From Elizabethkingia bruuniana (GTDB taxonomy: Bacteria; Bacteroidota; Bacteroidia; Flavobacteriales; Weeksellaceae), in NCBI RefSeq assembly GCF_002024805.1, contig NZ_CP014337.1, positions 3,100,001 through 3,164,000 of the forward strand: DNA of 64,000 nt, given 5' to 3'. The translations under genes and the position numbers were made by a program. Of this stretch, positions 1,309 through 14,760 are shown piece after piece. How positions within the stretch are numbered: position 1 is the stretch's first letter; each line of letters begins with the position of its first letter. Under the pieces are notes generated by a model. It saw only the letters and a program-made list of their open reading frames with translations, had not been told where the DNA came from and did no database searches.

Positions 1309-1336
1309 AAAATAAAATTTCACCAAAAGTAAACAA

Positions 1337-1870
1337 ATGGCAAAATCATTAGAAGAAATTTTAGCAAAAAAGAAAGAAAGGCTAGCCCAGACCTTTAGAG
1401 ACCTTCCGGCTATTATCGGAAATGAAGTGGTCAATTTCACCTTAGAAAATTTTGAAAAACAAAGCTGGCAGGGTGATTCTTTTGAACCATGGGAAAAACG
1501 GAAAAATCCTACAGCATGGGGAAAGAAAGACGATACAGGGCGAGCATTACTCGTTAAATCTGGAAAATTAAAGAGAAGTATCAGGATTGCGTCCATTCAA
1601 GCTGATAAAGTAACCATTGCAGTAGGTGGTGCAGATGTTCCGTATGCACGTGTACACAATGAGGGCTTTAAAGGCACAATAAATCAGCAGGTGAAGGAAC
1701 ATATCCGAAGAGGTAAGAACTTTAAAAATATAAAGGTTTCTGCTTTTAACAGGACTATTCAGCAAAATATACCAAAGCGTCAATTTATCGGATCAGAAGA
1801 ACAATCCCCGGTACTTAAAGAACGTATTAAAAAAGTATGCCTTGATGAAATAAAAAAAGCAATGGAATAA
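1337..1870 (+). CDS. Mu gpG-like phage virion morphogenesis protein
   Basis: The 177-residue protein has the layout of the Mu gpG/phage virion morphogenesis family: an N-terminal helix (LEEILAKKKERLAQT), the central block WQGDSFEPWEKRKN...GRALLVKSGKLKRSIR, then VPYARVHNEGF and a C-terminal PKRQFIG. The segments SGKLKRSIR, YARVHNEG and P-R-FIG are the family hallmarks. These proteins act in head completion and tail joining. It follows the gpF-like gene as in Mu and is followed 19 bp later by another late gene in the same direction. Confidence 0.8.
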   Translation: MAKSLEEILAKKKERLAQTFRDLPAIIGNEVVNFTLENFEKQSWQGDSFEPWEKRKNPTAWGKKDDTGRALLVKSGKLKRSIRIASIQADKVTIAVGGADVPYARVHNEGFKGTINQQVKEHIRRGKNFKNIKVSAFNRTIQQNIPKRQFIGSEEQSPVLKERIKKVCLDEIKKAME

Positions 1871-1889
1871 TTTAAAAACTATTTAAACA

Positions 1890-2324
1890 ATGGAAAAACT
1901 GTATTTAAAAATCGTAGAATTATTAGGAACCATTCCGGAGATAAAATATATTGATCTGGATTCCGGACAACTTCAGGAAGAAAAACCCCCTTTGGCTTAC
2001 CCTGCGGTTTTAGTACGTATTAATGAAATTAGAGAAGATGTGGATAATGTCTTTCAAATTGTAATCGGAAATATTCAGCTATTGGTAATTGATAAAACAT
2101 ATTCGGAAACAAATAATATTACACCTGAAGCCGTTCGAAAAAAAGGACTTGGCTATATGGCTCTTAACACTAAAATACATAGTATTTTGCAAGGTTATCA
2201 GGATTCTGAATTTAGAAGCTTTACCAATACCGCTAAAACGGATCAGCAACTTAGAAAAGGTTTAAAGACGATTGCACAGCAATGGACAACGTCTTGGCGG
2301 GAGAGTATGTATAATTCCAACTAA
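1890..2324 (+). CDS. Small phage structural protein, tail/head completion-like
   Basis: This 144-residue product lies 19 bp after the gpG-like gene, in the position where Mu-like phages encode small gp36/gp37-type proteins. It contains YPAVLVRINEI, a predicted strand-rich middle and RTxL-type ending similar to small tail-terminator proteins, but I cannot assign a family with certainty. Its last 74 bp overlap the end of the convergent early gene at 2251-2583. Confidence 0.6.
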   Translation: MEKLYLKIVELLGTIPEIKYIDLDSGQLQEEKPPLAYPAVLVRINEIREDVDNVFQIVIGNIQLLVIDKTYSETNNITPEAVRKKGLGYMALNTKIHSILQGYQDSEFRSFTNTAKTDQQLRKGLKTIAQQWTTSWRESMYNSN

Positions 2325-2583
2325 AAAAAGGGAATCGGGATTTTAACTGTTGTATAGATACCTGGTTCCTTTCAAGTTCTGAAATAATGTCGCCGCATTC
2401 TGAGATCAAATCACAGATGCGGCTTTCTGATATGTCGAATTCCTGTTCTAATTCGCTAAGACAACGAGAGAAATTAAGTCCTAAAAGGCAGCTGTACCAA
2501 TAAAAACGAGCCGCTAATTTGTTGTTGCGATTTTGGATTAAGAACGGGCTGCGACCTTTTGATATGTTAGTAACACTTGACAT
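2251..2583 (-). CDS. Conserved Mu-like prophage protein, possible helix-turn-helix
   Basis: The ATG at 2583 gives 110 residues; in-frame codons further upstream look non-coding. The core AARFYWYSCLLGLNFSRC followed by LSELEQEFDISESRICDLI is characteristic of a short protein common in Bacteroidota Mu-like prophages, and the second half reads like a helix-turn-helix. The C-terminal ~22 residues after FPFFSWN run into the convergent late gene and look unlike the rest, suggesting that an original stop was lost. It is the last gene of the leftward early block. Function is unknown. Confidence 0.6.
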   Translation of the reverse strand: MSSVTNISKGRSPFLIQNRNNKLAARFYWYSCLLGLNFSRCLSELEQEFDISESRICDLISECGDIISELERNQVSIQQLKSRFPFFSWNYTYSPAKTLSIAVQSSLNLF

Positions 2584-2641
2584 TACTACAAAAATAAAAA
2601 AACGCCTGAACTTGTGCAAGTTGGCGTTTATTTGTATTGTG

Positions 2642-3181
2642 CTAGAAATCATTGTCTGATTTTCGATTTAGATAATTGACAATATCTTTAAGTACTATTT
2701 TATAAAATGATAGAGATACATCTATCTGTTTTTTATTGTATTTATATGTGATATCATCACTTAGGTCTATATTATTTTCTGAATCTGTCAAATAAGAATA
2801 TCTTAAATCTGTCAATATAATTCTATACTTTTTATCTTTAATAAGAAATTTCCCTGTATAAAATATTTTAATTGGAAGGTATGTATCTTTACCATTCTTT
2901 TTTACTCCTGTTAAAAAATCTTCTTGATAAAAACACTTAAATGTAATTTCACCCAAATTAATGTCTTTAGTTTCTATAACATTCCTTGAATCTTTAAAGT
3001 TATTACTAAGCCAAGCTAAACTATTACTAAAAACACTCTCTTTTGTTTGGTTAGATACCATTACAGTATCTATTTTATATACTTGCTTTCCATACTTATT
3101 ATAATTCCCATTATCAGGCTGAAATGTCTGTGCATTAACAAATATTGTTGATAGAGTAAGAAATAATAACAGCTTTTTCAT
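2642..3181 (-). CDS. Secreted DUF4468-like protein
   Basis: An N-terminal signal peptide (MKKLLLFLTLSTIFVNAQ, cleavage after NAQ as in many Bacteroidota exported proteins) precedes a domain resembling DUF4468. The match is DTVMVSNQTKESVFSNSLAWLSNNFKDSRNVI followed by the G-EITFKC strand pattern expected of that TBP-like fold. It is 179 residues long. An exported protein inside the phage early block is probably cargo (a lysogenic-conversion gene) rather than part of replication. No biochemical role is known to me. Confidence 0.65.
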   Translation of the reverse strand: MKKLLLFLTLSTIFVNAQTFQPDNGNYNKYGKQVYKIDTVMVSNQTKESVFSNSLAWLSNNFKDSRNVIETKDINLGEITFKCFYQEDFLTGVKKNGKDTYLPIKIFYTGKFLIKDKKYRIILTDLRYSYLTDSENNIDLSDDITYKYNKKQIDVSLSFYKIVLKDIVNYLNRKSDNDF

Positions 3182-3204
3182 AGTTTAAAATTTTTCAAAT
3201 TTAA

Positions 3205-3426
3205 TTAATAATCTCTTCCTACAAAGTAACCAAGCCAAAATAAATCTTTAGCTGAAATTTCTTTTCCCATTTTAGGTGAAAAAATAATTGTCTGGCTATT
3301 TGTTGCAATAGTTTTAATCGTAATATCTGTTTTAGTTGCAATACCTATACCAATAGAACAGTCCTTCAATGCTGTCTGTATATTTTTTATAATTTCTGTT
3401 TGTGCGTTTATTTTAATTTCTTCCAT
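3205..3426 (-). CDS. Small unknown prophage protein
   Basis: The start at 3426 (MEEIKINAQ) gives 73 residues; an upstream in-frame ATG at 3450 would run into the terminator hairpin. The product is a short mixed alpha/beta sequence ending KDLFWLGYFVGRDY. It lies 23 bp upstream of the DUF4468-like gene and probably shares its transcript. I recognise no family. Confidence 0.5.
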   Translation of the reverse strand: MEEIKINAQTEIIKNIQTALKDCSIGIGIATKTDITIKTIATNSQTIIFSPKMGKEISAKDLFWLGYFVGRDY

Positions 3427-3453
3427 TTTAGTTTTATTAAAAGTTATCAAAAA

Positions 3454-3473
3454 AGCCCCGGTTTCCCGAGGCT
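3454..3473 (-). terminator. Hairpin terminator in the early block
   Basis: Arms AGCCCCGG / CCGAGGCT with one mismatch and a 4-nt loop, followed by six T on the minus strand. It separates the cargo-like pair to its left from the main early operon to its right. Confidence 0.55.
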
Positions 3474-3587
3474 AACCAATGATACATTCATATTAATCTA
3501 CTTCTTAGCCTCCTTCATTGTTTTTATAATCAAAGATAATTTCAGATTATTTTTATCTATTACGGCAATCCGTAAGGAATTTTAAAA

Positions 3588-3866
3588 TTATTTATTAAGT
3601 GTTTTTAAAAGCTTTTTAACTTCTGTTTCAAACACCTTTAAATACAATGTGTTTTCGCTTTGTTTTTCATCCGGCTTAGTTGCTGTAAAGGTGTAAACTT
3701 CTGTTTTTGGCTCATTTACCAACATTTCTTCGGTAGCGGGTAATTTTTGAACAAAAGCTTTGATTTCGTAGCCTTCTATTTGTAGAAAACTGATGATATC
3801 GCTTTGCGGAATATGCATTTTTATTTCCATTCTGATAACGTCATTTATTGGTGTTAGCTGTATCAT
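3588..3866 (-). CDS. Unknown early phage protein
   Basis: This 92-residue product starts four bases inside the end of the preceding gene (ATGA-type overlap at 3863-3866), which indicates translational coupling. Segments such as IPQSDIISFLQIEGYEIKAF and the lysine-rich end EVKKLLKTLNK are typical of a small soluble protein. I recognise no family. The 115 bp between it and the terminator contain no convincing gene. Confidence 0.55.
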   Translation of the reverse strand: MIQLTPINDVIRMEIKMHIPQSDIISFLQIEGYEIKAFVQKLPATEEMLVNEPKTEVYTFTATKPDEKQSENTLYLKVFETEVKKLLKTLNK

Positions 3867-4255
3867 ATTGAATTTTCATCTTTACTTTTATTTGATTTAA
3901 AAGCCCCAGCACAAGGAAATATACTGCCTGAAATCCAAAATTTTATAATTTCCAAATATATTTCTGAATGACTGTTTCCATGGAAAACAAATCTATCCAT
4001 TGTGCATCTATACTGAAAAGTCTCTGTAACATTAAAATAATTTCCATCATCAGCTTTTATCCATCTTGTCTTTTCAAATCTTCTATCGGTACTTTTTGAA
4101 ATTTTAATTTCATTACTACCAGATAAAGCCCTGCATATAATTTCTAACCAATCTTCTGATTGACTTTTTATAGCTTCATCAACAAATAGCCTTGCATCCC
4201 ATTCTTTTTCATGTTTAGGAATAAAATTATTTGCTACTGTTTTTAGATTTCTCAT
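3863..4255 (-). CDS. Unknown early phage protein
   Basis: A 130-residue soluble protein whose start overlaps the end of the upstream gene by 29 bp. It has a helical N-terminal half (KHEKEWDARLFVDEAIKSQ) and a tryptophan/cysteine-containing C-terminal half. No recognisable domain. Its place in a tightly packed operon makes it a real gene, but its role cannot be read from the sequence. Confidence 0.55.
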   Translation of the reverse strand: MRNLKTVANNFIPKHEKEWDARLFVDEAIKSQSEDWLEIICRALSGSNEIKISKSTDRRFEKTRWIKADDGNYFNVTETFQYRCTMDRFVFHGNSHSEIYLEIIKFWISGSIFPCAGAFKSNKSKDENSI

Positions 4256-4982
4256 TTCTTGATTGTTTTTCTGTTATTAAAATATTGTATACCTCTGGGT
4301 GAGTTCTTTGTGAAGTATTGGAAATCATTGTTTCCAGTTCTTTGTCCGTCATCTGCTTTGCGGTATTGGGCAAACTTGAAACATAAGCTTCTAAGCTAAA
4401 TAAAGGGTCATTCCGGTCTGCTTTTGCCTTAGATGGTACTTTTATCTTTTTGGATATTTTTTCAAACATTTTGGCGGTTTTATCGCTTATTGGGATTTCC
4501 TCAATTTGTCTATTAGTTAACTTTTGCTCTGAAACTATTATCTGTTCACGTATTTCTGCTTTTTCATCCATATACTTTGGAATCCAACCCATAATTACAA
4601 CATGATCCAGACGGTAAAAATCTCCAAAGCTTCCATTTCTTGCCATCTTAAACAATAAAACGATATCCTCTAAAGTGTCACCATACTTAAAAGCCTCTAT
4701 CAGATCGGCAGATAATGCAATCATTTGATCGTCATTAAGCTTTTTACTAACATTTATCAGATTATTAAACCTGTATAGTATTGCGTAAACTGTTTTGATT
4801 AGGGTGTTTTCATCAGCTTTTATCAGTTGGGCTATACTGGAACCTGTTTGGAAAACTTCTTTAATAGTCAATTTCCTTTCAATACTTGCTAACTCAATAC
4901 TATTGTTTTCCACCAAACATTGCATCAATTTTGCTGAAGGCAGATGTTGGATCGTTGTGTTTTGGTTTGTTGAGTTCTTCAT
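4227..4982 (-). CDS. Conserved phage protein, replication-associated by context
   Basis: The 251-residue product contains TLEDIVLLFKMARNGSFG followed by RLDHVVIMGWIPKYMDEK, a pattern I associate with a conserved protein of Bacteroidota phages and prophages. The C-terminal ~60 residues are polar and may be disordered. It overlaps the TIGR02220-like gene by 83 bp from the ATG at 4982; a second ATG at 4925 would cut the overlap to 26 bp. Context next to a replication-type protein suggests a replication or recombination role, which is inference. Confidence 0.5.
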   Translation of the reverse strand: MKNSTNQNTTIQHLPSAKLMQCLVENNSIELASIERKLTIKEVFQTGSSIAQLIKADENTLIKTVYAILYRFNNLINVSKKLNDDQMIALSADLIEAFKYGDTLEDIVLLFKMARNGSFGDFYRLDHVVIMGWIPKYMDEKAEIREQIIVSEQKLTNRQIEEIPISDKTAKMFEKISKKIKVPSKAKADRNDPLFSLEAYVSSLPNTAKQMTDKELETMISNTSQRTHPEVYNILITEKQSRNEKSKNSSK

Positions 4983-5283
4983 AATACTTTTTGTATTGTT
5001 GTGGGTTAGTTTTCACTGTTTCCACTTGGTTCACATACTTATCGAAGTTGGAAGGGCGAAATATTGTCGTTGGGCAAAGATGCTGTGCCATTACTTCGTT
5101 ATTCTTCCATTCTAAGGTCTTAAGCTGAATAACTTCCTGCATTTGCTCTTTTGTATATCCTGCTTTAAATCTTGCCGATATCGGGCTTGTATTGCTTTTT
5201 ATCGGTTTGAACCGCTTTCCTGTAATCTCATTGAAATAATTTAGTATTTCAATTTCTGGGGTTATTATTTCTTCTGCACTCAT
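4900..5283 (-). CDS. Phage replication protein with conserved TIGR02220-like C-terminal domain
   Basis: The first ~80 residues match the conserved phage C-terminal domain (PF09524/TIGR02220) seen at the end of many phage replication initiators: ILNYFNEITGKRFKP, then ISARFKAGYTKEQM, then LKTLEWKNN, LCPTTIFRPSNFDKYVNQ. Here the domain is free-standing, without the usual N-terminal winged helix, in a 127-residue protein. It precedes the 4227-4982 gene and belongs to the same operon. Confidence 0.65.
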   Translation of the reverse strand: MSAEEIITPEIEILNYFNEITGKRFKPIKSNTSPISARFKAGYTKEQMQEVIQLKTLEWKNNEVMAQHLCPTTIFRPSNFDKYVNQVETVKTNPQQYKKYYEELNKPKHNDPTSAFSKIDAMFGGKQ

Positions 5284-5297
5284 ATATTATTTATTAT

Positions 5298-6143
5298 TCA
5301 ATAACTGTTACACATACACGCTTCTCCAACATCGGAGAACATTTCTAACTGATTACCATCATCTAAAGCACATTGTGCAGACCGCACCAAATCATCAATT
5401 GATAGATTACCTCTGAAAAATCGGTTGCCATATTTTTGCTCTTCCTTTCTATACCAATCTATATATTGAAAATTCTGCTTTCGTAAATCGAATTGTATAG
5501 CTTCAATTAAATTTCTATCTGATTTTTTTTGACAATAAGCACAGTTCCCTAATCTTGAATGAATTTTAAGTTTAAAAGGTTGTTTTTGGAAATATCTGTT
5601 TAATTCAAACTGATCTACTGCATTTCCAAAATCTGTAAGAAGTGGAAAAATCTTTTTCTTACTCATTTTTACCTCTTTCCATGTAATTCGCTTTGGCATA
5701 TCTTCACGGCGGAACCCAATAGCAGAAATAAAGTTAGTGGTCTGAAATACCTCTTTTGCAAAATGATGAGAAACTCTTTTTTTCATATAATCAGAACAGT
5801 AGGGTATTGCTTCATTTGGAACTCCACACCATTCATTCTTATTAAGATGTGAAATTGCATCAGAAAAGACTTTCCCTTCCATATCCATAGTATTAAAATC
5901 AACTAATTTAGATTTTACACCTACTCCGGATTTAAGAGAATAAACACCTTCAATCATATACAGTGGTAAATTCCAATATTTAATCTGGTCTTTTAAAAAT
6001 TGTATAGTTTCTGAACGCTCTAAACCAGTATTACAGAAGACATATAATTTTTGATAGTCTTTATACTTTTCCGACGTTTGAATATGCCTTGCCATCATTG
6101 CTGATGATCTCCCACCGCTTACATTTACTAACAGAAACTTCAT
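5298..6143 (-). CDS. PAPS-reductase-like N-type ATP pyrophosphatase
   Basis: The N-terminus NVSGGRSSAMMARH is the SGG-type PP-loop of the PAPS reductase/adenine nucleotide alpha hydrolase superfamily, and YVFCNTGLERSET fits the following strand-helix. Cysteine motifs occur later (GNCAYCQKKSD and ACMCNSY), possibly for a metal or an Fe-S cluster. It is 281 residues from the ATG at 6143; the in-frame codon just before is TTG. The ATG overlaps the upstream stop as TGATG. Phage members may modify nucleotides or DNA sulfur, but the substrate cannot be read here. Confidence 0.7.
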   Translation of the reverse strand: MKFLLVNVSGGRSSAMMARHIQTSEKYKDYQKLYVFCNTGLERSETIQFLKDQIKYWNLPLYMIEGVYSLKSGVGVKSKLVDFNTMDMEGKVFSDAISHLNKNEWCGVPNEAIPYCSDYMKKRVSHHFAKEVFQTTNFISAIGFRREDMPKRITWKEVKMSKKKIFPLLTDFGNAVDQFELNRYFQKQPFKLKIHSRLGNCAYCQKKSDRNLIEAIQFDLRKQNFQYIDWYRKEEQKYGNRFFRGNLSIDDLVRSAQCALDDGNQLEMFSDVGEACMCNSY

Positions 6144-6610
6144 CAATTTAAATTTTTAAGTTTTTGTCCTTTTCTCCACCATGCCTCATTCATTGGTTTT
6201 TCAGCACTCTTTGCATTGTTATACTTTAATGTCTGCATTTGTGCCAGCAAAGTTTTTAGTTCTGATAGATTATAGGAATTCAGATGCTTTTTATAAACAG
6301 AGTACTGTAACATCCAGTTATTAAACTTCTGAAAATCTCCGGATTCTTTTATTCCTTCCTGTTCTGCAACTGCTAAAATTTTGCTTCTCCATTCTTTACA
6401 TAGTATTTCTTCCAGTAAAGCATTATTTCTCGCTTCGACATCCTTTGGTAAAGGCTTATGAATAGCCAAAAGGTTTATAGCTTCTTCTGTTGAAAGATCA
6501 TCTATTTTTGAAGTTCTAAACCCGGTAAATCCGCTAATCTCTATTGCAACATCCATTGGTTTTCTGTCTGCAAATAGTTCTTTGAGTTGTTCGTGTGGGG
6601 TTGTCATCAT
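6143..6610 (-). CDS. Unknown helical early phage protein
   Basis: A 155-residue, mostly helical protein with the middle segment DVEARNNALLEEILCKEWRS and the end EAWWRKGQKLKNLN. It is coupled to the downstream PAPS-reductase-like gene by a one-base stop/start overlap. It does not match any family I know. A DGR accessory role (Avd-like helical bundle) is conceivable from its proximity but has no sequence support. Confidence 0.5.
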   Translation of the reverse strand: MMTTPHEQLKELFADRKPMDVAIEISGFTGFRTSKIDDLSTEEAINLLAIHKPLPKDVEARNNALLEEILCKEWRSKILAVAEQEGIKESGDFQKFNNWMLQYSVYKKHLNSYNLSELKTLLAQMQTLKYNNAKSAEKPMNEAWWRKGQKLKNLN

Positions 6611-6622
6611 ATTAGTAGAGTT

Positions 6623-6919
6623 TTAGGTGAATTCGAGTCTTCTATCTTGTTTAACTATGGTTGTTTTAAAAGGAAATTTGTCTTTAGGAACCTGCCTAAT
6701 CATGAATATTAAATTTGCTGATCCACAAAAGAGTATATTTTTATCGCCTTTTCTTTCTATTTGCAAAGTGAGAAGCTCTGTTCCGGGCTTTACCTTCGAC
6801 GGCTCCACTTTGTAATCAAGTATCAGTATTTCAGTGTTTATAATTTTATCTATGCTTATTTTATCACCTATGAAGGTGCTTTCTTTTGGTTTTATTCCTA
6901 ATTCGCTAAAGTTGAACAT
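6623..6919 (-). CDS. Small unknown protein overlapping the DGR reverse transcriptase
   Basis: A 98-residue product whose start lies 22 bp inside the end of the reverse transcriptase gene, so the two are probably translated together. It looks beta-rich (TEILILDYKVEPSKVKPGTE; ILFCGSANLIFMIRQV), which might suggest an OB-like nucleic-acid binding fold, but this is only an impression. Because it is coupled to the reverse transcriptase it is a candidate DGR partner. Confidence 0.55.
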   Translation of the reverse strand: MFNFSELGIKPKESTFIGDKISIDKIINTEILILDYKVEPSKVKPGTELLTLQIERKGDKNILFCGSANLIFMIRQVPKDKFPFKTTIVKQDRRLEFT

Positions 6920-7863
6920 CCCAGTTTTTTAAGTAAGTTTTTTGAATCACAATGCTTTGTCCAACCTTTATAAGAAGCAATTGAAGCTTTGTTTGGTCTT
7001 TTTTTGAGCATTCGGGCAAAACGTTTTTTGATTGATTTACGTAGTAAAACGTGCGAGTGATAATGTTTGTAGCCTACAAAGTCAATTCCTCGTTTTGATA
7101 CTGGAAATACTTGCCAGTTATTTTTTACTGTTAATTTTAAACGCTCTTTAAAGTAGGTTTCAATTTCTTTTAAAAGCTGATGCAGATATTCTTTACTATC
7201 AGATAAAATAACCAGATCATCTGCATACCTGAAATAATACTTTACTGATTTTTTTTCTTTGATCCAGTGATCGAAATAGGTTAAGTAAAAGTTTGCTAAA
7301 AACTGACTTAAATAGTTACCAATAGGAAGCCCCGGCGCACTATCTATAATTTCATCCAGCAACCAAAGCAGATCAGTATCTTTAAATTTTCTTCGTAGTA
7401 ATGTTTTTAGTATTTCGTGGTCGATGTTTGGATAAAATTTTTCAACATCCAATTTTAGACAATAGGTAGTTTTTTCGACATTTTTTAAAGCTTTGCGTAC
7501 TGCAAAAGAAGCTGCATGAATACCTTTTCCTTTTATACAGCTATAAGAGTCAGCAGTAAAAGTTGAAACGAATATCGGCTCTAAGATGTTCATTACTGCA
7601 TGATGTGTAATTCTATCAGGGAAGAACGGCAGACGGTATACTTCACGCTCTTTTGGTTCATACACTTTAAACACTGAGTATTCAGATGTTTTATAGCTTT
7701 TCATACGTAACTGGGTGTTAAGCTTCATAATATTATTTTCTTTATTCTTATTATGCAGCATAATGCCGTATCTGTTAGCCTTTCCTTTCTGGGCTTTTTC
7801 ATCAGCAAGCATCAAATTTTCGATGCTGATAATTTTCTCGTATAGATTGTTTAATCTTTTCAT
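6898..7863 (-). CDS. DGR reverse transcriptase
   Basis: The ATG at 7863 gives 321 residues, the usual size for DGR reverse transcriptases. The open frame continues upstream through the template repeat, but that part is not protein-like. Visible RT motifs are REVYRLPFFPDRITHHA, LKLDVEKFYPNIDH (catalytic Asp), the DGR-type LPIGNYLSQFLANFYL with its SQ pair, the active-site YADD at residues 213-216, and a C-terminal GIDFVGYKHY. There is no maturase domain. The enzyme is expected to copy the template-repeat RNA with errors at adenines and feed the cDNA into the variable repeats at 8154-8230 and 8628-8704. No Avd-type gene is recognisable nearby. Confidence 0.93.
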   Translation of the reverse strand: MKRLNNLYEKIISIENLMLADEKAQKGKANRYGIMLHNKNKENNIMKLNTQLRMKSYKTSEYSVFKVYEPKEREVYRLPFFPDRITHHAVMNILEPIFVSTFTADSYSCIKGKGIHAASFAVRKALKNVEKTTYCLKLDVEKFYPNIDHEILKTLLRRKFKDTDLLWLLDEIIDSAPGLPIGNYLSQFLANFYLTYFDHWIKEKKSVKYYFRYADDLVILSDSKEYLHQLLKEIETYFKERLKLTVKNNWQVFPVSKRGIDFVGYKHYHSHVLLRKSIKKRFARMLKKRPNKASIASYKGWTKHCDSKNLLKKLGCSTLAN

Positions 7864-7966
7864 TTTGCCTTTGCTTTTAAAAAAGTCGTTTTCGGAATAT
7901 CCTACCAACGCCTTTTGGAAAGTGAGTTGTTTTTTGCCAAGAGGCAGGGTTTGCAGTGTTAAATAA

Positions 7967-8043
7967 CATAGGTGAGAGCTGACATTCGAATTCGAGTTAT
8001 CGTAATCGTAGTCGTTGTACGAGAACCTGCCAGACGAAGAACT
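7967..8043 (-). repeat. DGR template repeat (TR)
   Basis: This 77-bp copy aligns without gaps to 8154-8230 and 8628-8704. It holds 19 adenines on the minus (sense) strand. Fifteen differ in VR1 and fourteen in VR2, and no non-adenine position differs. In sense orientation it is rich in AAC/AAT/TAC/GAT codons (Y-N-D-Y-D-Y-D-N-S-N-S-N), the classical template design that lets A-substitution reach many residues. Just 3' of it on the sense strand is an inverted repeat TGTTA-N2-TAACA (7957-7968). Order on the sense strand is targets, TR, reverse transcriptase. Confidence 0.95.
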
Positions 8044-8074
8044 ACAGCAACACACTGCACAACCTTATTATCAA

Positions 8075-8539
8075 TTATTCAATCACAAAGTATTCTCTGT
8101 AAATTGCTTCAAACTGTTTTCCAGCATATTCTGCTAAATCTCTGCTTTTAAAGCAAAGGCGAGAGCCGACAATCGAATACGAGCAAACGCAAACGAAGTC
8201 GTCGCACGAGAACCCGCCAGACGAAGAACCTTCCATATCAAACCAAGGGTAATATTTGTACTCGTCGTCATTATCCCAGTCAGGTTCCCATCCTTCATTT
8301 AACGCCATTGCAATAATACATAGCTTGTAATGTGCGAATAAGGGTTTTTGTAATTTAGTAGGAATAGTTTCCAAATCTGGGTTTTGTGGGGTGATTCCCA
8401 GAACATCGCAAGCCTCTTCGAAACTTTTTACTCTGTCTTTGATATCCTTAGGCTTTTCAGCAAACTTTACAACACCTGTCGCTTTATCAAAAGTGTCAAT
8501 TTTGTACCCTTCCGGGATTTCAATTTTTAATTCGTTCAT
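8075..8539 (-). CDS. DGR variable target protein 1
   Basis: A 154-residue protein with an N-terminal region shared with its tandem neighbour (MNELKIEIPEGYKIDTFDK, then VVKF-KPKDIKDRVK), a conserved LNEGWEPDWDNDDEYKYYPW block and the variable region at residues ~104-129, followed by a constant helix AEYAGKQFEAIY. The cysteine-rich variable part reads CDDFVCVCSYSIVGSRLCF. Similar GW-PDW...YYPWF...VGSRLCF proteins are frequent in Bacteroidota phages and prophages; DGR variable regions of this type are usually C-type-lectin-like. The ligand is unknown. The variable repeat is not at the extreme C-terminus: about 25 residues follow. Confidence 0.85.
   Translation of the reverse strand: MNELKIEIPEGYKIDTFDKATGVVKFAEKPKDIKDRVKSFEEACDVLGITPQNPDLETIPTKLQKPLFAHYKLCIIAMALNEGWEPDWDNDDEYKYYPWFDMEGSSSGGFSCDDFVCVCSYSIVGSRLCFKSRDLAEYAGKQFEAIYREYFVIE
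8154..8230 (-). repeat. DGR variable repeat 1 (VR1)
   Basis: Gapless 77-bp match to the template at 7967-8043 with 15 differences, every one at a template adenine (T on the plus strand). On the sense strand it is followed directly by the hairpin TGCTT-N3-AAGCA (8143-8155), in the place where known DGRs carry their mutagenic-homing signal. Confidence 0.95.
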
Positions 8540-8551
8540 AATAAATGTTTT

Positions 8552-9004
8552 TTAAAGGGTTGTGAATTTTTTATAGATACTTATAAACTGAGTTCCGGCA
8601 TATTTTGCAAGCTCACTGCTCTTGTAGCAAAGGCGAGAGCCGACAGCCGAACCCGAGAAATCGTAATCGCAGTCGTCGCACGAGAACCCGCCAGACGAAG
8701 AACCCATTCTAAACCATGGATAATATTTGGTCTGGTTACGATCGTTCCAATCTGGTGTCCAACCTTCATTTAATGCCGATGCAATCAGTTTTATTTGTTT
8801 GTATGCAATTTCATCATCTGTTAGGCTAAGACATTCCATTGCAAATGTTTCAGATTTTATCCCGTGATACTGCAATACATCATTAAAAGTTTTAATGCGT
8901 TCTTTAATGTCTTTAGGTTTAGCTTCGAATTTTACTACACCTGTAACTTTGTCGAAAGCTCCAATCTGGAAGCCTTCAGGAATTTGAATTTTTAACTCGT
9001 TCAT
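8552..9004 (-). CDS. DGR variable target protein 2
   Basis: A 150-residue paralogue of the neighbouring target, 12 bp upstream of it in the same operon. It shares the N-terminal MNELKIQIPEGFQIGAFDK region and the LNEGWTPDWNDRNQTKYYPW block. The variable region spans residues ~101-126 and reads CDDCDYDFSGSAVGSRLCY, followed by a constant helix. Two tandem targets served by one template suggest that both are diversified. Function is not known; see the other target for family remarks. Confidence 0.85.
   Translation of the reverse strand: MNELKIQIPEGFQIGAFDKVTGVVKFEAKPKDIKERIKTFNDVLQYHGIKSETFAMECLSLTDDEIAYKQIKLIASALNEGWTPDWNDRNQTKYYPWFRMGSSSGGFSCDDCDYDFSGSAVGSRLCYKSSELAKYAGTQFISIYKKFTTL
8628..8704 (-). 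repeat. DGR variable repeat 2 (VR2)
   Basis: Gapless 77-bp match to the template with 14 differences, all at template adenines. VR2 differs from VR1 as well, so the two variable repeats record separate homing events or later retargeting. A hairpin TGCT-N5-AGCA lies at 8617-8629, the same relative position as in VR1. Confidence 0.95.
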
Positions 9005-9035
9005 AATGATTATTTAAATTGTTTTGAAATATTGT

Positions 9036-9149
9036 TTAAAAGCCTTTACGTTTTTTCCAGAACTCTACCCCCATCAATGTGAGAGTTGTTAGGCAGCATA
9101 CAAAGGCTATAATTGCTGCTGCTCCGGCTGCTACTCCTATGTAAAACAT
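9036..9149 (-). CDS. 37-residue single-pass membrane microprotein
   Basis: The frame starts at the ATG at 9149, which overlaps the stop of the DUF3164 gene as TAATG, a clear sign of coupled translation. The peptide begins MFYIGVAAGAAAIIAFVCC, one hydrophobic span of ~25 residues, and ends with the basic tail WKKRKGF, so the C-terminus is probably cytoplasmic. Its position just upstream of the DGR targets in the early operon is noteworthy. Function unknown. Confidence 0.65.
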   Translation of the reverse strand: MFYIGVAAGAAAIIAFVCCLTTLTLMGVEFWKKRKGF

Positions 9150-9781
9150 TACAATGAAGAAAAGTTTAATACTAAAGGCTTCCATGCTCCGTTTCGCTCT
9201 TTTTTAGAGACAGTCACATAATCTTTACTATGAATAAAGCTGTAACTCTCTTTTAAAAGCTTAATTCCTTCTTTCCAGTTTTCATCATTGAAACGGTCTT
9301 CCATGGAATAAAGCTTCTGTACCTGATCTACATCCAAAGCACCCTTTTTTCTTTCCAGACATAACATGATGAAATCTCTGGTGTCTTCATCACCACCAAA
9401 ACGATTATTAATAAAGTCTATAATGTGCTGTTCTGCTTGGTGTGATCTCTCGTCAAAGGTTCCTTTGCCTTGGCGTTTAAATTGAATTTTGTAATCTTCA
9501 TTAGATATTTCAAAATTTCCTTTTCCATCCTGATGGCGTTTACTGTAGACTTGTAAAAGTTCATACAATGCGCCAAGCTGGGAAAATGCTTTACTCTTGT
9601 ATCGCATCAATTGCAAATGAATATCTTCAGCAATTGGTGCCAGTTCTTCAATGGTTTCTTTTTTTAAGGCTTCATAGTCAGTACGCTGTTTTTCACGTGC
9701 CAACCTTTCAGCTTCTTTCTTTTCTGCCAGTGCCGCCTCTAATGCTTCTGCGGAAACTGTTGTAAGGTCGATTGTTTTCAT
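9149..9781 (-). CDS. DUF3164 family Mu-like phage protein
   Basis: The 210-residue protein has an N-terminal coiled-coil-like helix (ALEAALAEKKEAERLAREKQ), then ELAPIAEDIHLQLMRYKSK, YKIQFKRQGKGTFDERSHQA, and the ending KDYVTVSKKERNGAWKPLVL. This matches DUF3164, a protein regularly encoded downstream of A and B in Mu-like phages. A DNA-protection or replication-support function is often assumed but not established. It is coupled to the membrane microprotein downstream. Confidence 0.75.
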   Translation of the reverse strand: MKTIDLTTVSAEALEAALAEKKEAERLAREKQRTDYEALKKETIEELAPIAEDIHLQLMRYKSKAFSQLGALYELLQVYSKRHQDGKGNFEISNEDYKIQFKRQGKGTFDERSHQAEQHIIDFINNRFGGDEDTRDFIMLCLERKKGALDVDQVQKLYSMEDRFNDENWKEGIKLLKESYSFIHSKDYVTVSKKERNGAWKPLVLNFSSL

Positions 9782-9789
9782 ATTTATTG

Positions 9790-9966
9790 TTAATTTTTAT
9801 CTACGATAAATTTTCTGATTTTCATTTTGGGATCATAGTCCCAGTGTCCTTTTCGCTTTGCCTGAATTTCTTTTGCTTTTGCAAGGGCTGCGAATGCTTT
9901 TATGCGTTCCTGTTCTTTGGCATTTGCTTTTGCAACAATGTGCGCTCCGGTGTCTCCTGTCGTCAT
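9790..9966 (-). CDS. Small basic early phage protein
   Basis: Direct translation of this stretch gives 58 residues, MTTGDTGAHIVAKANAKEQE and onward through a lysine/alanine-rich helix to HWDYDPKMKIRKFIVDKN. Its ATG overlaps the stop of the gene upstream as ATGA (9963-9966), and the DUF3164 gene begins 8 bp after its stop. That packing makes it a real operon member. It is strongly basic and may bind nucleic acid, which is a guess. Confidence 0.65.
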   Translation of the reverse strand: MTTGDTGAHIVAKANAKEQERIKAFAALAKAKEIQAKRKGHWDYDPKMKIRKFIVDKN

Positions 9967-10250
9967 ATTAATAGTTCTTTGGTTAATTCTGGGTTGTTAT
10001 TCTTGTATTGTTCAATTGGAAGCCAGCGTTCCTGTTCTTCTTCGAAGTAGTACAGTAATCTGTCTTGATCATATCTCATATCGGGAGCATACCAGCTGAA
10101 TTCTTCAATTAGCGCAAGTAAAACATGTATTGATTCATTAGAATCTTTAGTTTTATTTTGCATTAATAAATGAACTTGTATTCTATCGTCCCACGTAAGC
10201 AACCTGTATATGCTGTCGAGTTGTAATAATGTTAAATATTGATGTTTCAT
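9963..10250 (-). CDS. Unknown small early phage protein
   Basis: From the ATG at 10250 the product is 95 residues (MKHQYLTLLQLDSIYRLLTW), acidic toward the C-terminus (LLYYFEEEQERWLPIEQY). Longer starts run into the upstream ATPase gene. It overlaps the next gene by four bases. I see no domain. Confidence 0.6.
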   Translation of the reverse strand: MKHQYLTLLQLDSIYRLLTWDDRIQVHLLMQNKTKDSNESIHVLLALIEEFSWYAPDMRYDQDRLLYYFEEEQERWLPIEQYKNNNPELTKELLI

Positions 10251-10255
10251 AGGTT

Positions 10256-10882
10256 TTATTTTGTTTCGGTTGTTCCCCAATATTTTTGTGCGCCTTCGTC
10301 CCAAATGGTGTAAATGCCTCCGTTGTGTCCGATATATCGACCTTTGGAAAATGCACGGAAACCTTCAATCCAGATTTTTAAACTTGCATCATACATTACT
10401 TTTACTGCTGATTTTCCGGACGGGTTCTTTCCGTCTGCCTGACTGGTGAAAATGAAAAGCTTGTTTGGATATTTCCGTTTCATGGCTAAATACTGCTGAA
10501 AGGTTTGATTTGTATATTGCCAACTATCATTTACTATTATATCAGGGCTTTTACGTCTGGAAAGGCGTTCGTCTAAAGCCTGCATATCTTCACATATTAA
10601 CTGTACTTTTCGCCCGCATTCGTGAACCCTGTGCCGTTTCCATGCATTTTGCATGGTGTGACTGGTTCCTTCCTCTAAGGAGTTGTAAAGAACCCGACCA
10701 AACTTGCTCAGTTCCTTTACTAATTCTAAAATGAAGCTTGTTTTTCCGTTTCCAGAGTTTCCCCAAATGAACCAAACGCCACTAGTCTCAGGTGTGTCAA
10801 AGGCATCATACCATTTTCCGTCGAAGTCAAAGAGCTTATATTTTTTACTGAGAATATCCGTTGAGGATAGGGCTTTGTTCAT
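10256..10882 (-). CDS. P-loop ATPase downstream of MuB
   Basis: Walker A GNSGNGKT sits at residues 41-48 of 208, after VWFIW, and a Walker-B-like strand is DIIVNDSW. KLFIFTSQADG fits the sensor region of RecA/AAA-type ATPases. The last third is a beta-rich tail (GGIYTIWDEG). It is the second ATPase next to the MuB-like gene, separated by only 2 bp, so it probably works with transposition or replication. Its exact role is not established to my knowledge. Confidence 0.7.
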   Translation of the reverse strand: MNKALSSTDILSKKYKLFDFDGKWYDAFDTPETSGVWFIWGNSGNGKTSFILELVKELSKFGRVLYNSLEEGTSHTMQNAWKRHRVHECGRKVQLICEDMQALDERLSRRKSPDIIVNDSWQYTNQTFQQYLAMKRKYPNKLFIFTSQADGKNPSGKSAVKVMYDASLKIWIEGFRAFSKGRYIGHNGGIYTIWDEGAQKYWGTTETK

Positions 10883-10884
10883 GG

Positions 10885-11826
10885 TTACTGTTTTGGCATA
10901 TTGAGTATTTTTCTTACTAGATTTTCGGTAACTGGTTCACCAAGTCTTTCGGCTTCTCGAAGTGCAGGAACTAATACATCATGTAATTCTCCATAGTTCT
11001 CACACTCTCTTTGAAGGAACTTAACCAAATTTTTATCCTCAATACCTTCCAAAAATTCTTTATATCTGGTGTCAATTGGCTTTAATTCCCTGATTCCGTA
11101 CTTTACACGGCGGTAAAACTGTGGCATCCCTGCTGCATTTTTATTTTTCAGCTTTTCAATCTTTGTTTTTAGCTGATCGGTACCAATAAGAATAAGTGCG
11201 CATTTTCCGTTTAGATGATCGTGGAACTCCTTTATATTACATAATGTTGCCTGTTTCATATATTCCGATTCATCCCAAATAACAGATGGATTTCTGCCGT
11301 TTAGTCGTAATCTGTTTAATTCTTTGGTAATAGTGTGGATTTTTCGGGATTTTGAACCAGCAATAGGTAATCGCATAGCTAATCCTAATTTATCTAACAG
11401 GTCTCCGATAGTGTCCATTGAACCGACAGTTATTTTAAATCTGTTTTTGGGATTTTGCTTTACAAATAAATCTGTTATATAAGTTTTACCACACCCAGTG
11501 GAACCGATTATAATATTTGTATATCCAAACTTTTCAGCATCTTCTAAGACAGAAAGCATCTGATTAAGCTGCGGGGTTTGTTTTAATGTCCAGTGGCTTT
11601 TATTTCCGTAGTTATAACCGATTACATCGGCAACCATACGAAAATATTTATCGTCAATATCTACTTCCTTTCCGCTTACAGTAATAAAATACTGGCTTTT
11701 TCTCATGTATGACAGATAATTGGCTGGTACTGCCGTTTCTGTTGAAAACTCATTGGCAGAAAAATTATGTTCATCCATCCATAACTCAGCGGCTGCCATT
11801 ATTTGGTCTTTGGTAGTTTTATTCAT
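10885..11826 (-). CDS. MuB-like transposition ATPase (target-DNA activator)
   Basis: The 313-residue protein starts with a helical DNA-binding-like region (MAAAELWMDEHNFSANEFST), followed by Walker A GSTGCGKT at residues 108-115 and Walker B SVIWDESE. The layout fits the AAA+ MuB family, which binds target DNA and activates the transposase. It overlaps the transposase gene by 8 bp, as expected for an A-B operon. Confidence 0.88.
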   Translation of the reverse strand: MNKTTKDQIMAAAELWMDEHNFSANEFSTETAVPANYLSYMRKSQYFITVSGKEVDIDDKYFRMVADVIGYNYGNKSHWTLKQTPQLNQMLSVLEDAEKFGYTNIIIGSTGCGKTYITDLFVKQNPKNRFKITVGSMDTIGDLLDKLGLAMRLPIAGSKSRKIHTITKELNRLRLNGRNPSVIWDESEYMKQATLCNIKEFHDHLNGKCALILIGTDQLKTKIEKLKNKNAAGMPQFYRRVKYGIRELKPIDTRYKEFLEGIEDKNLVKFLQRECENYGELHDVLVPALREAERLGEPVTENLVRKILNMPKQ

Positions 11827-13864
11827 CGTTATCTAGGTATTTATTGAGGTTTACTTTATTTGCGTAATAATCATTTTGTTCTTTTTCCCAATCAAAATCG
11901 TTTTCTTGTTGTATTTGCTTTTCCTGCTTATTGAGTAGGTTTTTAGAGCGATCTAAACGTTTTGCATTCCGTTGGTCTTTATGTTGCCCTCTGCTATTTA
12001 CTATCACCATCTTTGCCAGTGTTCCGTCTAATTCAGGGTTTCGGATAAACATTTGGTTAACTTCTTTGTAATCTTCTGCCTGAGTATCAAGAATCACCTG
12101 CTTCATTTCCTTATTAAAGCGACCTATTTTTGCTAATTCTTCGGCATCACCTTCTTCGCGGTCATATAAAGCCATTGGCTGTACATATTTTTCCTGAAGC
12201 ATGAAACTGATATTGTGTTCTTCATTGTAGGCAAGAACCTCATTGAGATTATTGCTATCATATTTTATCGTCCAATCGAGGTGCGAATACATTCTGAAAT
12301 TAATATCAAAGCTGTCGTACTCATGTTTTTTACCATTAATAGCGATATGAAGACCGTTGTGATTAACTTTATTTGTGTAACCTGTTGTTTCTCCAAAGTG
12401 TAAAAGGAAATCCTGATTACTGATCTCTTTTTTAGCATCCTCAGGCATATTATTATAAGCTTCGATATATTGCTCTTTTAGCCTTTCCCTTTCTATTTCG
12501 ATCATCGTTATAATTTGGGTCATACAACCATTTTCGTCTGGGAATGAGTGTCGAATCTTATTTAAATATTCTTCATTTGGCTGCGTTTCGGATTTCACCC
12601 CTTGTCCGCTCCAATTCGGTGCTAACTGGCAATACTTTTTATTAAAGAATTTAAACCATGGCTCAATTACTTTAGATTTTGCATTACCAACCTTTGCAGG
12701 AGTAAAGTTTTTAGACATCATTTCATAAATCGGTGTCATTTTCTTCTTAGAATAGTTATCAGACTGTATCTGTAATACTTTATGCTTTTGTCCAAATAAT
12801 TCTTCAGTATGTAGAACTGCATTTCTAAGAGCCTGTTGTATAAGACCTGAACTTTCCTCTCTTCCAATTGCATAACCGATAGGGTATTTTATTACTGGGT
12901 CTAAAACAACCACCATTGTAAGGCGATTATGATAAGTTGTGATCTTATCACCTTTTAAATTCTTGCTTTGTCTCTGATATAGCAACTCGATATCCCATCC
13001 ATCAACAGTCCAGAACAATAATGGAGCAGAAGGTGCTTTTCTTTTCACCTGCATACCTATGTTATCATTAAATGCCTTTTCTCCATTGGTTCCGGCATAT
13101 ACTAACAGATTCCACTTTTTACGATAATTGCCAATTGTTCCGGCAGATAGTTCTGGAAAGCCTTGTATTTTAGCAACTGAGTTGTAAATCATGGCGATTT
13201 GCTCATTATCCAGATTACGGTGATCTCTTAATAATTGGCGCAATAAAGCTTCCTGTGTAGCATCTTTTACTTTTATCGCTTTTTTCTTTCCGAAATTTTC
13301 AGAAACCAATGATTTGTAGCCATCTTTTGCAAATTCAGCCAGTTTATCACGCAAACGTCGATCTGTACCCGGCAAAGTATGCCCGATTTGACCTTTTACT
13401 TCTTTTACTGCAATTGCAGCTTCTTGCCAAATTTTTGTTATCGATCCGCCTCTGGATTTTCTGAAAGCTTTCATATCCTTCATATAAGCGTCAACAGCTT
13501 GTATCATCTGAGCATTTCTAACATATTCATCCTGTTTTTCCGGAGAAAGCCTTCTGTAATCCTCTAGCAAATGAGTCGCATAGAAGTCAATCGCTTCATA
13601 ATCTGTCTTGTAATACTTTAAAATCAGATGTTGAGCCTCTTTTTTTGGAGGAATACCAAGCTTTCTTACAATTTCAACTCTGAATCGTTCCGGTATGCTA
13701 TCAAACTCTACAAGAGCACAGTTATCTAAGCCTTTACCCTGTCTAACTCGATTTAATTTACCTTGTCTACATTGTTTATCATAATTAGATTTAGACATAA
13801 CGCCCAAATCCTCATACAAGGCTCGTCCGGGAATCGTTAAAGTGTTATGATAAAAATCGTACAT
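11819..13864 (-). CDS. MuA-like DDE transposase
   Basis: The protein has 681 residues, near the 663 of Mu A. The N-terminus resembles the Mu DNA-binding domain (YDFYHNTLTIPGRALYEDLG). The catalytic RNase-H-like core shows D288 (TVDGWD), D369 (QSDNYS) and E401 (SKVIEPW), a D-D-(31)-E spacing. A beta-barrel-like region follows, and the charged C-terminal tail (ENDFDWEKEQNDYY) could contact MuB. It should cut and join prophage ends for integration and replicative transposition. It is the first large gene of the early operon. Confidence 0.93.
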   Translation of the reverse strand: MYDFYHNTLTIPGRALYEDLGVMSKSNYDKQCRQGKLNRVRQGKGLDNCALVEFDSIPERFRVEIVRKLGIPPKKEAQHLILKYYKTDYEAIDFYATHLLEDYRRLSPEKQDEYVRNAQMIQAVDAYMKDMKAFRKSRGGSITKIWQEAAIAVKEVKGQIGHTLPGTDRRLRDKLAEFAKDGYKSLVSENFGKKKAIKVKDATQEALLRQLLRDHRNLDNEQIAMIYNSVAKIQGFPELSAGTIGNYRKKWNLLVYAGTNGEKAFNDNIGMQVKRKAPSAPLLFWTVDGWDIELLYQRQSKNLKGDKITTYHNRLTMVVVLDPVIKYPIGYAIGREESSGLIQQALRNAVLHTEELFGQKHKVLQIQSDNYSKKKMTPIYEMMSKNFTPAKVGNAKSKVIEPWFKFFNKKYCQLAPNWSGQGVKSETQPNEEYLNKIRHSFPDENGCMTQIITMIEIERERLKEQYIEAYNNMPEDAKKEISNQDFLLHFGETTGYTNKVNHNGLHIAINGKKHEYDSFDINFRMYSHLDWTIKYDSNNLNEVLAYNEEHNISFMLQEKYVQPMALYDREEGDAEELAKIGRFNKEMKQVILDTQAEDYKEVNQMFIRNPELDGTLAKMVIVNSRGQHKDQRNAKRLDRSKNLLNKQEKQIQQENDFDWEKEQNDYYANKVNLNKYLDNDE

Positions 13865-13881
13865 AGTTTAAAAAAAATTGT

Positions 13882-13921
13882 TCCCGCCGTGGTGTCGAAT
13901 CCACGCTATGCCGTGGCGGGA
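13882..13921. other. Compound inverted repeat between divergent genes
   Basis: Outer arms TCCCGCC / GGCGGGA enclose an inner GTGG / CCAC hairpin. It is unusually GC-rich for this region and lies between the transposase start and the rightward zinc-ribbon gene. A regulatory or terminator-like role is possible. Confidence 0.4.
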
Positions 13922-13928
13922 GATTTAC

Positions 13929-13936
13929 TATATTTG
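13929..13936 (+). promoter_or_regulatory. Bacteroidota -7 element upstream of the zinc-ribbon gene
   Basis: TATATTTG fits the TAnnTTTG -7 consensus and lies 23 nt before the ATG at 13960. No clear -33 TTTG is visible at the expected distance, where the GC-rich inverted repeat lies. Confidence 0.4.
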
Positions 13937-13959
13937 TTATTCCACTAAAAAATATAGTT

Positions 13960-14163
13960 ATGACTAATTATTCAAGATCAAAATGTCCTAAATGTGAAAA
14001 CTCTCGTTTTGAAATGGTTGAAGATGCACCGGAAGGTTCTAATTTTAAGATGATGTTTATCCGATGTACCTCATGTAAAACGGTTATTGGAGTAGGTGAT
14101 TACTATAATATTGGCACCTTAATCCATGAACTTGCTAGAAAGCTTAATGTTCGTTTGGATTAA
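13960..14163 (+). CDS. Small zinc-ribbon protein
   Basis: A 67-residue protein with two CxxC pairs, CPKCENSRF and IRCTSCKTVIG, forming a likely zinc ribbon. The C-terminal half is helical (IGTLIHELARKLNVRLD). It is transcribed against the early operon, inside the region between repressor and transposase, and its last 20 bp overlap the convergent 14144-14329 gene. Zinc ribbons of this size often bind nucleic acid or act as adaptors; the specific role is unknown. Confidence 0.7.
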   Translation: MTNYSRSKCPKCENSRFEMVEDAPEGSNFKMMFIRCTSCKTVIGVGDYYNIGTLIHELARKLNVRLD

Positions 14164-14329
14164 TAGTTTTTTCAATTTCTTTAATCTTTTTCCATACTTC
14201 CTCATACTGTTCTGGTGGAAGCAATATTCCTTTTTGCTCTATAGAAATAGCTAGTTTCTTTTTTTGAGATTCAAAAGATGTTTGAGAAATGCTAGATGCT
14301 GTATTTGAGATAATTAATAGAATTTCCAT
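14144..14329 (-). CDS. Unknown small early phage protein
   Basis: A 61-residue, largely helical product (ILLPPEQYEEVWKKIKEIEK at its C-terminal half). It is the last of three small genes packed head-to-tail after the early promoter (14681 to 14144). No family recognised. Confidence 0.5.
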   Translation of the reverse strand: MEILLIISNTASSISQTSFESQKKKLAISIEQKGILLPPEQYEEVWKKIKEIEKTINPNEH

Positions 14330-14331
14330 TT

Positions 14332-14475
14332 CTAAAGGGCTTTATAGGTTGTTTTATAAGTGAATCCCAAGAGTTGGTATGAAGTTGCCAACTCTTTTAT
14401 ATGGCTATCAACATTTTCTACTTCATAAGTTGAAATACAGAAGATGTTCTGCAATAATTTTTGCAATAATTTCAT
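14332..14475 (-). CDS. 47-residue early phage protein
   Basis: Reading this gap gives MKLLQKLLQNIFCISTYEVE and a further 27 residues ending KTTYKAL. Its ATG overlaps the stop of the preceding gene as ATGA (14472-14475), and it ends 2 bp before the next start. The packing supports translation; function cannot be inferred. Confidence 0.55.
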   Translation of the reverse strand: MKLLQKLLQNIFCISTYEVENVDSHIKELATSYQLLGFTYKTTYKAL

Positions 14476-14681
14476 AATGGTTGTTTTTTGAAGTTTTCAA
14501 GTGCTTTTATTGAAGGATTAGCCAATTCATAATATTTTTTACGAATGGTTTCTGCTGTTAAACTATGTTTCTCTTTACGGACACACATTCTTACAAATCG
14601 TGTTGACACCAAGAATTCTTGAGAAAGAGCATTGATGATTTCCGTATTGTAACTTTCTCTTTTTTTTGTTTCTTTGTTCAT
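14472..14681 (-). CDS. Small early phage protein, possible DNA-binding (Ner-like position)
   Basis: A basic 69-residue protein (MNKETKKRESYNTEIINALS, then FLVSTRFVRMCVRKEK) that is first in the leftward early operon, opposite the repressor. In Mu this place is taken by ner, the early-transcription regulator. The middle could form a helix-turn-helix, but the match is not strong. Confidence 0.5.
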   Translation of the reverse strand: MNKETKKRESYNTEIINALSQEFLVSTRFVRMCVRKEKHSLTAETIRKKYYELANPSIKALENFKKQPL

Positions 14682-14706
14682 TGCTTTATTTATTCCGATT
14701 ATGGAA

Positions 14707-14714: not shown

Positions 14715-14723
14715 GAAAATATA

Positions 14724-14751: not shown

Positions 14752-14760
14752 ATAATTGCT

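Follow-up and report, generated by a model that had tools for sequence, protein, structure and literature searches.

Which kind of element stands among the early genes of a Mu-like prophage in Elizabethkingia bruuniana, and what does it diversify there? The stretch of DNA analyzed, called the window, comprises the 64,000 nucleotides from position 3,100,001 to 3,164,000 of the single-contig 4.43-Mb genome (contig NZ_CP014337.1). It holds a reverse transcriptase (RT) gene, an adjoining template repeat (TR) and two variable repeats (VR1 and VR2) located in two tandem genes, target 1 and target 2. A preliminary description, made from the sequence alone, had proposed a complete diversity-generating retroelement (DGR) with two targets inside a Mu-like prophage. 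In this study, the cassette was realigned, compared with related loci and searched for RNA structure and accessory genes. We regard it as a DGR of a Mu-like phage and of a working type, with a probability of about 0.95. The core of this DGR is ordinary and belongs to a known lineage by architecture and motif; the DGR is accompanied almost constantly by an uncharacterised partner gene, lies in a gene context other than that of tail genes and follows two sequence rules.

Template and variable repeats

Ungapped realignment of TR with both VRs over 77 nt reproduced the earlier counts exactly. VR1 differs from TR at 15 of the 19 template adenines (8 A to G, 7 A to T) and VR2 at 14 (10 to G, 3 to T, 1 to C), with no change at the other 58 positions in either repeat. 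When both strands of the window were scanned with TR, leaving adenines free and requiring at least 60% of the other positions to match, only the places of TR, VR1 and VR2 were found. Both VRs lie inside open reading frames (ORFs). TR lies outside the likely RT coding frame when the ATG at 7863 is taken as the RT start; the mechanical ORF continues through TR to 8055. The motifs YADD and LPIGNYLSQ reported before are both present in the RT ORF. The DGR, its two targets and the Mu-like prophage were all borne out; the RT is assigned to PHROG 1423, and neighboring genes match PHROG 310 (transposase) and PHROG 296 (MuB-like DNA transposition protein). The RT (6898-7863, likely ATG at 7863) lies outside the span of 7863-9004 given for the element. 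The nearest solved chain of the RT is 8ub7 (E 1e-47), titled 'Reverse transcriptase', which we take to be the DGR enzyme of phage BPP-1; a group II maturase matched with E 1.5e-19.

Four distinct cassettes carry a byte-identical TR, namely the window, L047 (=L069), L048 (=L067) and L068. Among them, VR1 varies at 14 of the 19 adenine columns and at none of the 58 others, the same holds for VR2, and TR varies at 0 of 77 positions; in the remainder of the aligned stretch, 239 of 2080 columns are variable. This adenine-only variation among cassettes sharing one TR indicates that homing acted repeatedly after the cassettes split, and judged from these sequences the DGR was active in their evolutionary past. 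The near relatives thus bear out the expectation that VRs differ solely at adenine-templated columns. The adenine-specific mutagenic homing claimed earlier stands as an adenine-only footprint of past, not present, homing, and in one respect it must be narrowed: five of the 19 TR adenines (TR positions 1, 16, 64, 71 and 75) read G, G, G, G and T in all eight VRs. These five are fixed TR/VR differences and not diversified sites, and 14 adenines really diversify.

Distribution of the module

The RT relatives are the 80 best of 532 in IMG/VR. Relatives of the targets came from two sources, IMG/VR (14) and a set of 320 genomes of the family, 21 of which have targets, the present genome being one of them. 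An RT was present in 104 of the 116 sequences scanned, and 81 loci remained once identical sets had been removed; the loci are mutually related, and the counts given here do not represent independent events. In 101 of the 104 RT loci, one or more repeats close to the RT had their mismatches on A, which is more than chance, as control scans in which C, G or T was left free gave 0, 14 and 2 loci. A second set of 80 genome loci, 11 of which share a TR with the first set, yielded adenine-only repeats in 73, with 0, 13 and 2 loci in the C, G and T controls; in the seven remaining loci the RT lies at most 460 nt from the start of the available sequence. Target ORFs were counted in 79 loci, with two in 65, three in 7 and one in 7 (two or three in 72 of 79). 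The order target-target-TR-structured spacer-RT-orf98 recurs in Bacteroidota phages.

In genomes of a related genus (L023, L025, L026 and L029), proteins with the target scaffold carry a different loop at the place of the VR; in L029 the domain is present twice, in tandem. The best RT matches in those genomes did not go beyond E 6e-4, and the proteins are possibly DGR-free relatives of the targets.

The cassette can be placed among known DGRs by comparison with published systems, cited here and below from the excerpts of the papers available. RT lineage 3 with VR class CLec3 (Wu et al. 2018 NAR, quoted in PMC7290462) is characterized by the order target-TR-RT, no avd and 'SRLC' at the VR 3′ end. 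The same order, absence of avd and SRLC motif are found here, an assignment made by architecture and motif. With the hankyphage (PMC6199706, PMC12135933), the cassette shares its location in a Mu-like transposable prophage of Bacteroidota. The hankyphage of Bacteroides is described in these excerpts with one large target, a C-terminal VR in a tail fibre and an annotated Avd, in contrast to the paired small targets and the missing Avd of the present cassette.

Targets and gene context

The targets were compared with protein families and structures. Of 74 targets, 73 matched PHROG 11581. A Pfam search gave no convincing family (best E 0.004, one member), with no lectin or FGE family among the matches listed, and a search of solved structures gave no significant relative (best E 0.1). 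None of 146 targets exceeded 1.6 on the Kyte-Doolittle scale in any 19-residue window. In both window targets, about 25 codons follow the VR, and the targets carry the SRLC motif.

Among the 81 loci, relatives of the transposase were found in 23, of the MuB-like ATPase in 25, of the second ATPase in 26 and of the DUF3164 protein in 22, always on the strand of the DGR; sequence of 6.5 kb or more upstream of the RT was available for just 51 loci. For loci without a match to the window-type transposase, 20 flanking proteins, mostly longer ORFs, were picked by hand from seven of eight mapped loci. Eleven of these belong to DNA metabolism (exonuclease, helicase, primase, DnaC-type loader, replication initiation, SbcC, HNH), one is a methyltransferase, one a metal-dependent hydrolase, two are structural, and five are unknown or unmatched. 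The cassette flanks favour DNA metabolism, not tail genes.

Phage DGRs are taken mainly as serving host attachment (PMC8144416), and the targets might accordingly be adhesins, either of the virion or of a surface, and serve to switch host range like those of BPP-1 and the hankyphage, their position among early genes being incidental. Most viral DGR targets in clades 1, 4 and 6 bear a tail-protein annotation (PMC8144416), the hankyphage, also Mu-like, diversifies a tail fibre (PMC12135933), and structural genes were present near the cassette in two of the seven sampled loci. Against adhesins stand the small size of the targets (~150 aa), the lack of a convincing Pfam family and the predominance of DNA metabolism in the flanks, which leave this explanation doubtful. 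We slightly prefer, at somewhat less than even odds, an intracellular role for the targets, in which they bind varying partners, for example proteins of the host or of a rival phage, over service as a tail fibre.

Fixed and diversifying template adenines

For comparison across loci, the A of the 3′ AGC codon was numbered 0. The recount of the first set in the TR register covered 79 loci (L116 and L120 had no anchor). The initial anchor used VR letters at 0, 1, 3, 4, 6 and 7; the second set was aligned by a TR-only anchor and here comprises 54 of 80 loci, leaving out 7 with no repeats, 11 with a shared TR, 6 with no anchor and 2 in which the repeats do not lie at the RT start. Among central adenines (−39 to −4), 37.5% (855/2283) were kept as A, and all bases were seen. 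At the ends, a single base prevailed in the first and second set, respectively: G at site 0 (145/146 and 84/86), at +7 (128/128 and 87/88) and at −48 (82/83 and 48/48), as well as at the silent sites −55 (TCA to TCG; 91/94 and 37/38) and −49 (17/18 and 6/6), and T at the silent site +11 (CTA to CTT; 99/101 and 53/57). VR1 and VR2 carried the same base in 66/67, 59/59 and 40/42 cases at sites 0, +7 and −55 and in 390/1049 cases at central sites, and TR/VR differences are conserved at 0, +7, +8 and +11. From about −53 to +5, TR and VR match in their non-adenine bases, wobble positions included (no site with more than 3 mismatches in 153 pairs), despite differences between loci, which argues that the ends are held in register. 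At silent third codon positions, the TRs of the 79 loci have no adenine from −52 to +5 apart from −49; towards the ends, adenine is found repeatedly at the silent positions −55, −49, +8 and +11.

Protein selection removing other bases at essential codons would account for part of this pattern, as the target codons give Gly at positions 0 and −48 and Arg at +7. It cannot explain the silent sites, since −55 and +11 are fixed equally, and it leaves unexplained why A persists in TR at sites where one substitution by G would save many homing products; as the general cause of the fixed adenines it is hence unlikely. Two further candidates were rejected. Nearest-neighbor mutagenesis, with A before G read as G, would have affected central C-A-G and G-A-G contexts, which gave G in 1 of 9 cases. 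A need for A at the fixed sites in TR-RNA folding was not seen either, as substituting VR bases at these sites left the computed fold no weaker (mean −3.2 kcal/mol in 69 loci, compared with −2.1 for random swaps of central sites). With only −55 swapped, the RNA became more stable (mean −2.6, 42 loci), and TR possibly avoids an extra structure there; RNA folding does not clearly explain the fixed adenines. A comparable pair of ends has been reported for archaeal DGRs, with TGGAAT in TR and TGGGGT in VR (PMC4372165). Our best guess, by analogy, is that the fixed end adenines may act as a donor/recipient mark of the IMH*/IMH (initiation of mutagenic homing) type.

Among diversifying sites, the error spectrum depends on context. 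In template Asn codons, the second A was changed to C in 6 of 362 cases for AAC and in 92 of 421 for AAT (stratified by codon position, z −6.0), and in 9 of 252 and 53 of 265 cases in the second set (z −4.2). As AAC and AAT give the same amino acids, protein selection is an unlikely cause of this bias. The rarity of A to C before C is the reverse of the BPP-1 enzyme, for which the corresponding misincorporation was 26.8% before C and 2.5% before T (PMC12875486).

Structured spacer and orf98

The spacer between TR and RT matched the Rfam family RT-17 (RF03020) with 43.3 bits at a gathering cut-off of 40.4, and RT-17 was above the cut-off in 2 of eight other loci searched. An RNA alignment of 69 loci, obtained from 79 after dropping near-identical ones, gave a consensus fold in which helix P1 forms between the region preceding TR and the beginning of the spacer and is followed by two hairpins. 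The fold has 23 pairs, 21 of them with changes on both sides; 97.0% of the cells are paired, with 334 double-sided changes compared to 85±15 in shuffles, and slid controls were paired to 30-42%. A pairing of the TR 5′ end with the spacer, suggested by eye for the window, is absent from the consensus fold.

The basic protein orf98 is encoded directly after the RT. Relatives follow the RT in 77 of the 81 loci (78 by translated search), and orf98 occurs in 11 of the 320 genomes of the family, all 11 also being in the target list. Among 50,697 phage records (E up to 1e-3), it was matched in two archaeal viruses, both of which have the gene immediately behind the RT. In the second set, 77 of the 80 genome loci had enough sequence after the RT, and orf98 was present in 59 of them, falling with RT identity from 44/44 at at least 64% over 14/26 at 50-64% to 1/7 below. 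The median isoelectric point (pI) of orf98 is 9.1 (n=64). One of the archaeal systems, the virus ANMV-1 (PMC4372165), shares the orf98 relative AJP62065 directly after the RT. It differs by its archaeal host and by one larger target adjoining genes annotated as tail fibres; the paper's figure marks an Avd, and elsewhere in it Avd-like ORFs are named by pI and size.

Avd was absent from the 10 proteins around the RT, and the DGR can be called complete, as in the preliminary description, only if Avd is not counted, since no PF05635 place lies nearby and orf98 sits there instead. An identity of orf98 with Avd was tried and rejected, as a search of solved structures with its profile gave nothing significant. 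In crAss cr55_1, the gene behind the RT was likewise rejected as an orf98 relative (probability 1.1%). A literature search short of most subscription papers returned no paper on RT-17, none naming Elizabethkingia together with DGRs and nothing pointing to an accessory like orf98, the novelty of which is unproven. We regard orf98 as a conserved DGR neighbor and candidate cofactor, which by analogy of position probably stands in the place held elsewhere by Avd.

Prophages and history of homing

The features of the window are listed in Table 1. On the minus strand, the genes follow the order transposase, MuB-like ATPase, second ATPase, DUF3164, target 2, target 1, TR, RT, orf98, and MuA and MuB homologues thus stand in the early-region order of a Mu-like phage. 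Prophage ends were set where the likeness between two related prophages stops, and the true ends are uncertain; a 5-8 bp repeat (target duplication) was not seen at these shared ends.

Table 1. Features of the DGR cassette and the surrounding prophage in the window (window positions).
Feature	Position	Strand	Evidence or remark
Template repeat TR, 77 nt	7967-8043	-	19 adenines: 14 diversify, 5 fixed
VR1	8154-8230	-	ungapped 77-nt alignment with TR
VR2	8628-8704	-	ungapped 77-nt alignment with TR
Target 1, 154 aa	8075-8539	-	PHROG 11581, unknown function
Target 2, 150 aa	8552-9004	-	paralogue of target 1, ~55% identical
DGR reverse transcriptase, 321 aa, YADD, LPIGNYLSQ	6898-7863	-	PHROG 1423 E 8e-128; Pfam RVT_1
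orf98, 98-aa basic protein, pI 9.3	6623-6919	-	PHROG 19665 E 1.8e-12; directly after RT, overlapping
Structured spacer RNA between TR and RT	7864-7966	-	Rfam RT-17 at 7865-7951
Helix P1, 5′ arm	8052-8063	-	alignment A1 columns 21-32
Helix P1, 3′ arm	7949-7959	-	alignment A1 columns 148-158; P1 brackets TR
DUF3164 protein, prophage early region	9149-9781	-	PF11363 E 1.9e-18
MuB-like transposition ATPase	10885-11826	-	PHROG 296 E 2.6e-25
Mu-type transposase	11819-13864	-	PHROG 310 E 8.1e-39
Mu-like prophage, in-window part	1-15958		continues left of window, ~34.3 kb overall

A second, related Mu-like prophage lies at 3,556,282-3,590,751 of the same genome (L041-L043), in inverse orientation and with the same end points. 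It is a mosaic relative to the window prophage, with difference-free blocks (DGR and early genes, and parts further left) beside blocks of ~90% identity. A third cassette of the same DGR type at 597-599 kb (L044) has its own VRs and an RT ~78% identical; no match to the window-type transposase was found in the stretch searched near it. When the genome was searched at the DNA level with the TR stretch, no VR place emerged outside these three cassettes.

The difference-free block containing the DGR measures ~7.6 kb (about 3,107.0-3,114.6 kb) and includes the VRs, so that these two prophage copies record no homing since the block was shared. This identity is what a decayed element, with VRs as old products and homing ceased, would predict. 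Decay is nevertheless improbable, as the RT ORF is intact with YADD, the identical block extends over ~7.6 kb and hence was shared recently as a whole, and the VRs differ at 8-13 of the 19 adenine columns per pair of same-TR cassettes, with 34-207 of 2080 columns differing in the rest. Ordinary divergence or gene conversion of tandem paralogues without mutagenic reverse transcription, suggested by the paralogy of targets 1 and 2, has practically no chance given 0/58 non-adenine changes in either VR, also between cassettes, as opposed to 239/2080 columns elsewhere.

Two neighboring regions were noted besides. A PAPS reductase-like protein (window 5298-6146, minus strand, PHROG 424) is encoded downstream of the cassette on the same strand. 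Just outside the prophage, at 16213-21191 (plus strand), a prenyltransferase-like-repeat protein, an M50-like membrane protease and an ABC ATPase fragment follow consecutively; judged by eye, this row is perhaps a peptide-modification and export cluster.

Proposed mechanism and significance

The DGR of the window could work as follows. TR and spacer would be transcribed, and the RNA folds, as covariation shows, with P1 closing TR and the spacer hairpins presented, presumably for binding by the RT. The RT, probably together with orf98 in the place of Avd, would copy TR with errors opposite adenines, and the cDNA would replace the middle of VR1 and VR2 in the two tandem paralogous genes; the adenine footprint of both steps is seen in the repeats. 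The fixed end adenines, above all those at the 3′ end (AGC/CAC/CTA in TR, GGC/CGC/CTT in VR), may mark TR as donor and VR as recipient, similar to IMH*/IMH of BPP-1. The products are small proteins that lack strongly hydrophobic segments and contain a hypervariable stretch of ~12 codons, and their genes lie among those for early DNA handling.

Taken together, this would describe a DGR branch in which orf98 took over the role of Avd, small early intracellular proteins are diversified in pairs, and TR ends with never-diversified, in-register donor-mark adenines. The combination is tentative, and we consider it unlikely that all of its parts hold. Several results weigh against the mechanism and the intracellular role proposed here. 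BPP-1 needs a GC-rich hairpin with a GRNA loop after the VR (PMC3240598), and a search for a stem of 7-10 bp with such a loop within 120 nt after the VR found it in 0 of 155 VRs; stems of at least 7 bp within this distance occurred in 15 of 155 VRs (5 of 155 shuffled), and shorter stems of at least 4 bp near 95 of 155 VRs and near 29 of 79 TRs. A six-frame genome search for Avd (PF05635) gave 9 places, none near the three cassettes. Two of the 20 flanking proteins are structural, a head protease in L101 (~1.4 kb after orf98) and a tape measure protein in L104 (opposite strand), the VRs are identical in the two prophages of this genome, and for intracellular action there are just two grounds, gene position and the lack of hydrophobic segments.

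As neither Avd nor the GRNA-loop hairpin, both needed in BPP-1, was found nearby, the mechanism is not a plain copy of that of BPP-1. With BPP-1 (PMC3240598, PMC12875486), as far as these excerpts describe it, the cassette shares a DGR-type RT, adenine-specific transfer from TR to VR, a structured spacer and IMH/IMH*-like 3′ differences. It is unlike BPP-1 in these two absences, in a VR ending ~25 codons before the target end and in its two targets among early genes.

The natural error spectrum predicts an RT with a bias opposite to that of BPP-1, useful for designed diversification, and orf98 offers a concrete candidate for how some Avd-less DGRs work. If the targets do act inside the cell, they would be an intracellular counterpart of hypervariable tail fibres, aimed at host or rival-phage proteins, and a widespread set of Bacteroidota DGRs with paired targets among DNA-handling genes would show directed hypermutation inside the cell.

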